The position numbers and the translations under genes are program-made. Of a stretch of DNA of 64,000 bases, positions 19,697-21,638 are shown in pieces. The notes under the pieces were generated by a model that saw only the letters and a program-made list of their open reading frames with translations, was not told the origin of the DNA and did not search any database. Position 1 is the first letter of the stretch, and every line of letters begins with the position of its first letter. The stretch lies in contig NZ_QAJP01000005.1 of assembly GCF_003852535.1 (NCBI RefSeq), positions 1 to 64,000 of the forward strand, given 5' to 3'. The stretch comes from Herminiimonas sp. KBW02. Its GTDB lineage: Bacteria; Pseudomonadota; Gammaproteobacteria; Burkholderiales; Burkholderiaceae_D.

Positions 19697-20737
<1,041 letters not shown>

Positions 20738-20772
20738 CTAAATTACTTAAAAACGAAACGGAAAAAATAAAT

Positions 20773-20800
20773 GAAACTTTTTTGCCGCATGCTCATCCTA
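20773..20800 (+). promoter_or_regulatory. Candidate alternative-sigma (ECF-like) promoter of the sRNA
   Basis: GAAACTT (20773-20779) and TCCTA (20796-20800) are 16 nt apart. This resembles the GAACTT / TCTRA layout of RpoE-type sigma factors more than a sigma-70 promoter. It would start transcription near 20806, exactly where the first hairpin begins. The match is short and the assignment is tentative. Confidence 0.35.
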
Positions 20801-20805
20801 GTAGC

Positions 20806-20913
20806 AGATGCTTTGCATCTCCCGCTTCTCCTCCCTGAGCGGGGCCAAGTCGCACAAGCGCGATATGGCATTATTGCCCTGGAGATACTCCCCTTTCTCC
20901 AGGGCTTTTTTTT
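20806..20913 (+). ncRNA. Candidate small RNA with an anti-Shine-Dalgarno loop
   Basis: About 108 nt between hemB and engB fold into four consecutive hairpins. H1: AGATGC/GCATCT (20806-20811, 20815-20820). H2: CCCGCT/AGCGGG (20821-20826, 20838-20843) with an 11-nt loop TCTCCTCCCTG holding CTCCTCC, the complement of the Shine-Dalgarno sequence. H3: GCCA..TCGC / GCGA..TGGC (20844-20869). H4: a 10-bp stem (20876-20885, 20896-20905) followed by eight Ts, a textbook intrinsic terminator. The hairpins leave little room for a protein. The layout resembles the anti-SD 'cuckoo' sRNAs known from Alphaproteobacteria and Neisseria; I do not recognise a named family. It is not 4.5S RNA (GGAAGC tetraloop region absent). 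Confidence 0.65.
20876..20913 (+). terminator. Intrinsic terminator of the sRNA candidate
   Basis: GCCCTGGAGA (20876-20885) pairs with TCTCCAGGGC (20896-20905), followed by TTTTTTTT (20906-20913). The orientation is + strand, where no protein gene is present upstream, which is the main reason to infer an RNA gene here. Confidence 0.9.
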
Positions 20914-20930
20914 GTCTACAGCTGTTATCG

Positions 20931-21638
20931 TCAGACATCACCTGCGGTCGGGTCGTTCGATTCGTCCGCTACTTCCTCATTTAATCCCAGCAAATCGATA
21001 ATTCTGTCGGTGGCTTCATCCAGGCCGCTGCGTTTGAGCGACGAGAACAATTGCGCCGTGAACGGGAACGGCTGTCCGTTTTCGTCGACATAGCTGCCCA
21101 ATATAGTACGCGCGGTACGTAATGCATTGGCGGAGTCGTTGCGGTTGAGTTTGTCTGATTTTGTTAACAGGCAGTGGATGGGTTTGCCGGTAGGGGCAAA
21201 CCATTCCAGCATCTGGATATCGAGTTCGGTGAACGGGCGGCGCGAATCGACGATGAGGATCAGCGCGGCCAACTGCTCACGACGCTGTACATAATCACCG
21301 AGCAGTTCCTGCCAGTGCAATTTGGCCGAGCCGGATACTTCGGCGTAGCCGTAGCCGGGCAGGTCGACCAGCAGGGCGCGGATCTCATCGACCCTGGTTT
21401 CATCCTTGCGGTGCTGCCCGACGTGGGCGCCGCCGATGGAAAAATAATTGATATGCTGTGTGCGGCCGGGAGTCTTGGACGCAAATGCCAGTTTTTTCTG
21501 GTTGCAAAGTACATTGATCGCGGTTGATTTACCCGCGTTGGAGCGGCCGGCAAATGCAATCTCGGGGACTTGCGTTTTTGGCAAGTCACGGAGATGATTG
21601 ACCGTGGTGAAGAAGCGGGCTTGCCAAAGTAGGGACAT
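20931..21638 (-). CDS. engB: GTP-binding protein EngB (YihA/YsxC), ribosome assembly
   Basis: A 235-residue GTPase with G1 GRSNAGKST (residues 31-39), the G2 region [11 protein letters not shown]3 [13 protein letters not shown] (from 92), G4 TKSDKLN, and G5 around [12 protein letters not shown]. Family members help late assembly of the 50S subunit. There is a His/Lys/Glu insert ([17 protein letters not shown]) between G2 and G3. It ends in an acidic tail. It is transcribed divergently from the cytochrome c4 gene. Confidence 0.95.

Follow-up and report, generated by a model that had tools for sequence, protein, structure and literature searches.

A conserved sigmaE-type promoter and a place beside engB characterize the anti-hemB (RF02837) small RNA family within and outside Burkholderiales

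A 2012 survey of Burkholderia counted anti-hemB among trans-acting RNAs, and the family is catalogued in Rfam as RF02837, also known as Burkholderia RNA 7. Its B. cenocepacia orthologue, ncS04, is an RNA of 105 nt whose start was determined by dRNA-seq and whose 3' end was determined by RACE, and which was also detected by Northern blot; it is encoded in a left-right-left gene layout and its co-purification with Hfq was reported. In Table 2 of the ncS04 study, no significant change of its level is given for biofilm, stationary phase, starvation, glucose medium, osmotic stress, low pH or low iron. Exposure to SDS and to H2O2 was part of the study too and, according to the accessible text, induction was largely absent. 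According to a review, Bc7 of B. cenocepacia had been predicted to target hemB, and anti-hemB or RF02837 is also named in PMC6515984. The accessible parts of the literature searched on anti-hemB, RF02837 and ncS04 give neither a promoter type nor a function for this RNA, and describe neither a sigmaE-type promoter nor an occurrence between polA and engB.

Small RNAs with C-rich loops or with a gene close to polA or engB are described in other bacteria. The available parts of the reports concerned place sX13 (RF02232) of Xanthomonadaceae 175 bp downstream of polA, at a locus that its authors compared with those of Spot 42 and alpha-r7, and attribute its repressing activity to C-rich loops acting on G-rich motifs without Hfq. 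The ErsA RNA of Pseudomonas aeruginosa is dependent on sigma22/AlgU and pairs with the ribosome-binding site of algC with Hfq. For the P. aeruginosa small RNA SPA0122, the location given is PA5492/engB and the accompanying remark is "Spot42".

The locus studied here belongs to a stretch of 64,000 nt of Herminiimonas sp. KBW02 (contig NZ_QAJP01000005.1), hereafter the window. The only above-threshold Rfam 15 match in the whole 64-kb window is RF02837, with 60.9 bits against a gathering threshold of 49.5, over positions 20818-20913. The small RNA itself, delimited with Rfam and with the covariance model R1 presented below, occupies positions 20806-20913 of the forward strand (about 108 nt, start predicted) and is a member of this known, catalogued family. 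It had been called unannotated in the first-pass annotation, which also proposed the Rfam search. That search found a family already catalogued, and together with ncS04 its result rules out an undescribed RNA. The features reported from the sequence, i.e. four consecutive hairpins closed by a T8 terminator on the strand opposite to both neighbouring genes and the motif CTCCTCC in the 11-nt loop of the second hairpin, were all recovered. Hairpin 1 (20806-20820), the conserved 5' hairpin, is almost entirely outside the Rfam match, which starts at 20818, just before hairpin 2; the Rfam model therefore omits it. Hairpin 2 (20821-20843) has a 6-bp stem and an 11-nt loop, UCUCCUCCCUG, at 20827-20837, in which CUCCUCC is read at 20828-20834. 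Hairpin 3 follows at 20844-20869. The intrinsic terminator (20876-20913) consists of a hairpin at 20876-20905 and a T8 tract at 20906-20913, and the 10-nt loop of this hairpin, UACUCCCCUU, is a second C-rich loop. No terminator was listed at the RNA locus by a simple terminator scan, which accepts loops of 3-8 nt. The folding energy of a 148-nt segment is -54.7 kcal/mol, versus a shuffle mean of -36 (sd 3.43; z -5.45; 0/200 shuffles as good).

The RNA is flanked by two genes of the reverse strand, in agreement with the RF02837 layout in which the RNA is located between hemB and engB and opposite to both. The divergent neighbour is hemB (19697-20710; PF00490, 466 bits), whose start codon is 95 nt away from the predicted RNA start. 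The convergent neighbour (20931-21638; PF01926) is a GTPase gene that we take to be engB (yihA). In a second genome of the genus the locus (L028) is nearly identical to that of the window (L001), with 95.7% identity for EngB and 98.8% for HemB. A 76-aa open reading frame (20771-21001) spans the RNA. A small protein was rejected because, when 11 own-genus loci are translated from the ATG/GTG of hairpin 1, the C-terminal parts vary both in sequence and in length.

RF02837 is found over its cut-off in 45 of 60 relatives and in 245 of 399 genomes of the order. The loci retrieved (L003-L058 and L063-L091) are the best-scoring matches of each search. Among 57 Burkholderiales loci, hemB(-) is upstream in 54, and hemB(-) upstream and engB(-) downstream are both present in 52; only hemB accompanies the RNA in L035 and L052, and neither gene does in L027. 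A polA query gave no match in these 57 loci. The covariance model R1, hairpin 1 included, was built from the 40 Burkholderiales rows retained from 57 once near-duplicates were removed. It gave 81 matches in 73 of the 79 loci searched and no match in the remaining six (L092, L093, L098, L099, L100 and L103). The window locus, itself among the training rows of R1, scored 88.2 bits (L001:1488-1594). The 79-locus search left aside 17 Burkholderiales loci (L018, L020, L022, L023, L025, L028, L030, L031, L037, L039, L040, L043, L045-L047, L049 and L052) as well as L002, L059-L062 (RF02278 loci), L095 and L097 (copies of L083 and L090).

In the resulting alignment A3 (81 rows), 94.5% of the pair cells are standard pairs, versus 34-47% with slid partners. 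Two-sided changes occur in 28 of 29 pairs and in all four stems (6/6 pairs of hairpin 1, 5/6 of hairpin 2, 8/8 modelled pairs of hairpin 3 and 9/9 of the terminator); A3 is fitted to the model structure, so these counts lean towards that structure. The unfitted alignment A1 contains such changes in 14 of 22 predicted pairs. Hairpin 2 is nearly invariant within Burkholderiales and its support therefore comes mostly from other loci. The covariation anticipated by the first-pass annotation is thus observed in the four stems, whereas the invariant CUCCUCC loop that was to accompany it is not: in column slices of A3 the full motif is present in 27/41 Burkholderiales rows and 6/40 others, while CCUCC is present in 41/41 and 33/40, respectively. 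The conserved core of the hairpin-2 loop is CCUCC(C), not CUCCUCC. The second C-rich loop, that of the terminator, is conserved in 36/41 Burkholderiales rows and 30/40 others, and CCC is found in the hairpin-3 loop of 9/41 and 28/40 rows, respectively. Overall, the observation made in the first-pass annotation is confirmed and its interpretation is partly supported.

Upstream of the RNA, comparison within the genus and with distant relatives delineates a -35 element, GAAACTT (20773-20779, forward strand), followed after 16 nt by a -10 element, TCCTA (20796-20800). The consensus recognized by sigmaE/AlgU is GGAACTT-N16/17-TCTNA. It was selected after the upstream sequences had been viewed, and the 20 further loci mentioned below therefore constitute the only later sample. 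Scoring against this consensus (maximum 11.5) was done in the 100 nt preceding the hairpin-2 motif. The window copy scores 9.5, departing from the consensus in both boxes; the window RNA is preceded by a sigmaE-type promoter, as expected of sigmaE-dependent small RNAs. A match was obtained in 13 genomes of the genus. Each of the 11 own-genus loci that were read has GAAACTT, followed at 16 nt by TCCTA in ten of them and by TCTCA in L020. Distant relatives carry a GGAACTT-like -35 element, and many relatives carry TCTNA or TCATA as the -10 element. A score of at least 9.5 was obtained for 54 of 58 Burkholderiales loci, versus 1.2 expected from shuffles, and for 19 of 28 other gammaproteobacterial loci, versus 0.42 expected, which leaves four and nine loci, respectively, below this value. 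The best -35 element starts 56-68 nt ahead of the hairpin-2 motif in 54/58 Burkholderiales loci and 24/28 others, versus 16-17% of shuffles. Among the 20 further loci, hand-picked from the lower, still over-cut-off listed matches (L213 repeating L063), 13 score at least 9.5 at 56-68 nt and one more, L195, does so at 77 nt. The six others comprise L194 (8.5, at 79 nt), L212 (8.0, at 62 nt) and four loci devoid of the motif (L196, L204, L205 and L213). The alternative-sigma promoter that had been proposed from the window copy is therefore present, its position and spacing are conserved across families, and it fits sigmaE. This conserved promoter upstream of RF02837 RNAs is a new observation.

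The genome itself encodes RpoE (TIGR02939, 324.5 bits) in the order rpoE-rseA-rseB, homologues of RseA and MucB/RseB following the sigma factor gene. No such sigmaE-type site was found directly upstream of rpoE. Genome-wide, the pattern GRAACTT-N16/17-TCNNA has only eight sites, fewer than the 28 of its reversed control. Apart from the site of the RNA, only two of the eight (L110 and L111) are within 110 nt before an open reading frame. By eye, the frame located 29 nt after the L110 site resembles a small membrane protein and that located 107 nt after the L111 site a small lipoprotein. The L106 site is 200 nt before a lipoprotein-like frame, yet inside another one.

We consider that the RNA is probably a trans-acting regulator of family RF02837, controlled by sigmaE and covering purine-rich ribosome-binding sites with its C-rich loops, and not a cis-antisense RNA of hemB. 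An unlikely alternative, which the ncS04 data bring forward, is that of a constitutive small RNA with C-rich loops, transcribed from a housekeeping promoter, the GGAACTT-like boxes being incidental or read by another sigma factor. The stress control suggested by the first-pass annotation finds no support in ncS04, the one relative tested in the literature consulted, whose level did not change significantly in any condition of Table 2. The motif is also missing in L032, L057, L063, L196, L204 and L205, and some relatives have a TATATCATA- or TATATGATA-like box. Against a housekeeping promoter, both boxes are maintained in many families, in sequence as well as in position and spacing, far more often than shuffles would give, and no sigma70-type promoter was found in 20700-20950. 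A loss of the promoter specific to Burkholderia was considered as an explanation for the unchanged ncS04. The large-genome members of family f31 are mixed in this respect, with L032, L057 and L194 (8.5) falling short, and this explanation is weakened because L033 and L195 still score 9.5.

The family extends beyond Burkholderiales. Among 274 genomes sampled from the class, RF02837 has matches at E<=0.001 in 124 and over the cut-off in 14. Twelve of these 14 are outside the order; the remaining two are the own genome and another genome of that order. Of 14 control genomes, three gave weak matches, all under the cut-off. The 28 non-Burkholderiales loci have engB(-) downstream in 16 cases, polA(+) upstream in the fetched flank in 15 and at least one of the two in 22; neither was found for L067, L070, L075, L077, L081 and L086. 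R1, trained on Burkholderiales alone, matched 28/28 of these loci on the strand of the Rfam match (E 2e-7 to 1.5e-15). The presence of an RF02837 RNA beside polA and/or engB outside Burkholderiales is likewise new. A c-di-GMP-I riboswitch (77.9 bits) was found in the flank of one gammaproteobacterial locus (L074:2037-2121, reverse strand).

A collection of named genomes was also scanned with the pattern GAACTT-N15-18-TCATA-N26-44-CCTCCCTGAGCGG. Because the pattern itself requires promoter and loop, the 73 stretches recovered are uninformative on the rate of promoter retention. They belong among others to Methylophilus, Azonexus, Dechloromonas, Glaciimonas and Pararobbsia, and to Thioalkalivibrio denitrificans, Thioalkalivibrio sulfidiphilus, Wenzhouxiangella and Candidatus Tenderia. 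Their neighbours are hemB and engB in 46 cases, engB only in six, polA and engB in five, hemB only in four and polA on the other side in two. No such neighbour was found for the last ten, nine from Methylophilus and the Wenzhouxiangella one. R1 matched all 27 of the pattern-scan loci on which it was tried. In the nine Methylophilus loci (L120, L125, L137, L146, L154, L173, L177, L178 and L187), the RNA and its promoter are kept and no hemB, engB or polA is found within 900 nt, L173 beginning right at the match with almost nothing upstream. The RNA gene seems to have moved there, or its neighbours to have been lost.

Several gammaproteobacterial loci contain more than one copy of the RNA. Two same-strand copies are found in each of L067, L070, L080, L101, L102, L155 and L165, and two opposite-strand copies in each of L130 and L171. 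Among the loci gained via the sX13 model, R1 recognized a single copy in L096, a pair in both L101 and L102, and four copies in L094. Such tandem repetition in some gammaproteobacteria, L094 with its four copies included, and the several C-rich loops of each RNA speak for an RNA that titrates an RNA-binding protein, or for a decoy mimicking the 30S subunit, in which the loops would sequester a CU-binding protein and not pair with messenger RNAs; the lack of obvious extended target complementarity also agrees with it. We know of no CU-binding protein of that sort in these bacteria, which counts against such a titrator. In the accessible description, moreover, sX13, which the RNA resembles, acts by base pairing with G-rich motifs, and we regard titration as improbable.

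The cis-acting antisense RNA or divergent leader regulating hemB that the family name implies, for which the short distance between the two starts, the 54 Burkholderiales loci with hemB upstream and the Bc7 prediction of the review speak, is more doubtful still, because the RNA, which does not overlap the hemB reading frame, persists without hemB nearby, both outside Burkholderiales, where it stands beside polA and/or engB and no hemB was found in the 28 fetched flanks, and in L007 and L054, which retain it with engB upstream on the forward strand and hemB not found. That no hemB was found in these 28 flanks makes of "anti-hemB" a misdescription, and RF02837 has been carrying this misleading name since 2012 with no function in the accessible literature.

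For the preferred reading, i.e. a trans-acting regulator under sigmaE control, direct support is available for family membership, for the conserved structure and loops, for the conserved sigmaE-type promoter and for the conserved place beside engB. The RNA is stable, has four hairpins and C-rich anti-Shine-Dalgarno loops, and follows a sigmaE-type promoter; from this combination we infer translational repression in trans under envelope stress, by a mechanism modelled on those of sX13 and ErsA. RNA polymerase with sigmaE (RpoE) would start near 20806 and produce the four-hairpin RNA of ~108 nt. Its C-rich loops, UCUCCUCCCU in hairpin 2 and CUCCCC in the terminator, would then pair in trans with G-rich Shine-Dalgarno regions, probably with the assistance of Hfq, and ribosome loading on the paired messages would be blocked during envelope stress. 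The comparison across many bacteria suggests an old envelope-stress regulator that silences messages by masking their ribosome-binding sites.

The search for exact complements of the loop over 10 nt retrieved four sites in the genome, one of them being the RNA's own locus, and gave no clear target set; exact loop complements being rare, pairing must rely on shorter seeds or concern few targets. GGGAGGAGA placed 3-9 nt ahead of an ATG was found only on the antisense strand of the RNA itself. One exact complement, AGGGAGGAGA, is on the reverse strand of L191, around locus position 1500 and ~25 nt before an open reading frame whose product resembles by eye an MCE/MlaD-type protein of envelope lipid transport and may be a target. 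In E. coli, envelope-stress small RNAs are represented by MicA and RybB. The conserved sigmaE-type promoter makes RF02837 a testable candidate for an envelope-stress small RNA of Burkholderiales with a role like theirs.

The window RNA is closest to ncS04, with a length of about 108 nt versus 105 and, as far as the latter is described in the accessible text, the same neighbour layout. More remote resemblances concern the loops. The ar14/cuckoo-type RNAs of Alphaproteobacteria also present C-rich anti-Shine-Dalgarno motifs in their loops, and the window RNA had been proposed as a cuckoo-type counterpart. The conserved C-rich, anti-Shine-Dalgarno-like loop agrees with this proposal, whereas the ar14 model reaches only 29.1 bits on the window against a cut-off of 58.8, below family membership. 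The Betaproteobacteria toxic small RNAs, or double-hairpin RNAs (RF02278), have, in the part of their description consulted, a CU-rich unpaired stretch opposite a ribosome-binding site; they differ by having two hairpins and by being located elsewhere in the genome, and RF02278 was not listed for the window site. In the own genome this model is over its cut-off at two tandem loci (C10:385837-385901, L059, and C10:386055-386117, L060) and at C11:448492-448555 (L061), with a weak match at C13:69656-69720 (L062). RF02837 cross-matches L059 with 26.7 bits.

The comparison with sX13 involves the C-rich loops, the terminator and the polA locus, as given in its accessible description. The sX13 model scores 22.6 bits on the window, against a cut-off of 50, and the window gene next to the RNA is hemB, not polA. 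Matches of this model coincide with those of RF02837 in L083 (37.9 bits), L090 (35.8 bits) and L094 (48.3 bits), all under the cut-off of 50. The two over-cut-off sX13 loci, L092 and L093, differ in having no GGAACTT box in the 75 nt upstream and are unmatched by R1 at E<=0.01. ErsA resembles what is proposed here by its control by sigma22/AlgU, a homologue of sigmaE, and by its pairing with a ribosome-binding site, according to the same kind of partial source, and differs in that its stem-loops are separated by domain II, which is U-rich and unstructured. Its model (RF01719) is not listed at E<=1 for 20600-21100; in L094, a single one of the four tandem copies is weakly matched by it, with 37.1 bits against a cut-off of 50. 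The engB flanks of G590 and G699, Pseudomonas stand-ins with, respectively, an over-cut-off and a weak PrrF match, which may not be ErsA-bearing species, have neither a GAACTT-type promoter nor a significant match of R1, the best reaching 7 bits (E 0.39). Weak ar14 matches are also found at loci with cross-matches of the sX13 and ErsA models, and part of the cross-matching may therefore reflect shared C-rich hairpins, not descent. The gammaproteobacterial loci described here share the E. coli layout polA(+) spf(+) yihA/engB(-). R1 does not match the E. coli spf (Spot 42) locus at E<=0.01, and the likeness of Spot 42 to anti-hemB-type loci is only positional.

An ancient sigmaE-driven small RNA gene with C-rich loops may have stood beside engB before the split between Burkholderiales and other gammaproteobacteria. 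Anti-hemB would be its betaproteobacterial branch, and sX13, ErsA and perhaps Spot 42 would have descended from it at this locus, some lineages having duplicated the gene in tandem and others having lost or replaced its promoter. This scenario is tentative, and we hold it to be slightly less probable than its contrary. With the polA-engB occurrences, the common origin of anti-hemB, sX13 and ErsA becomes a directly testable question.
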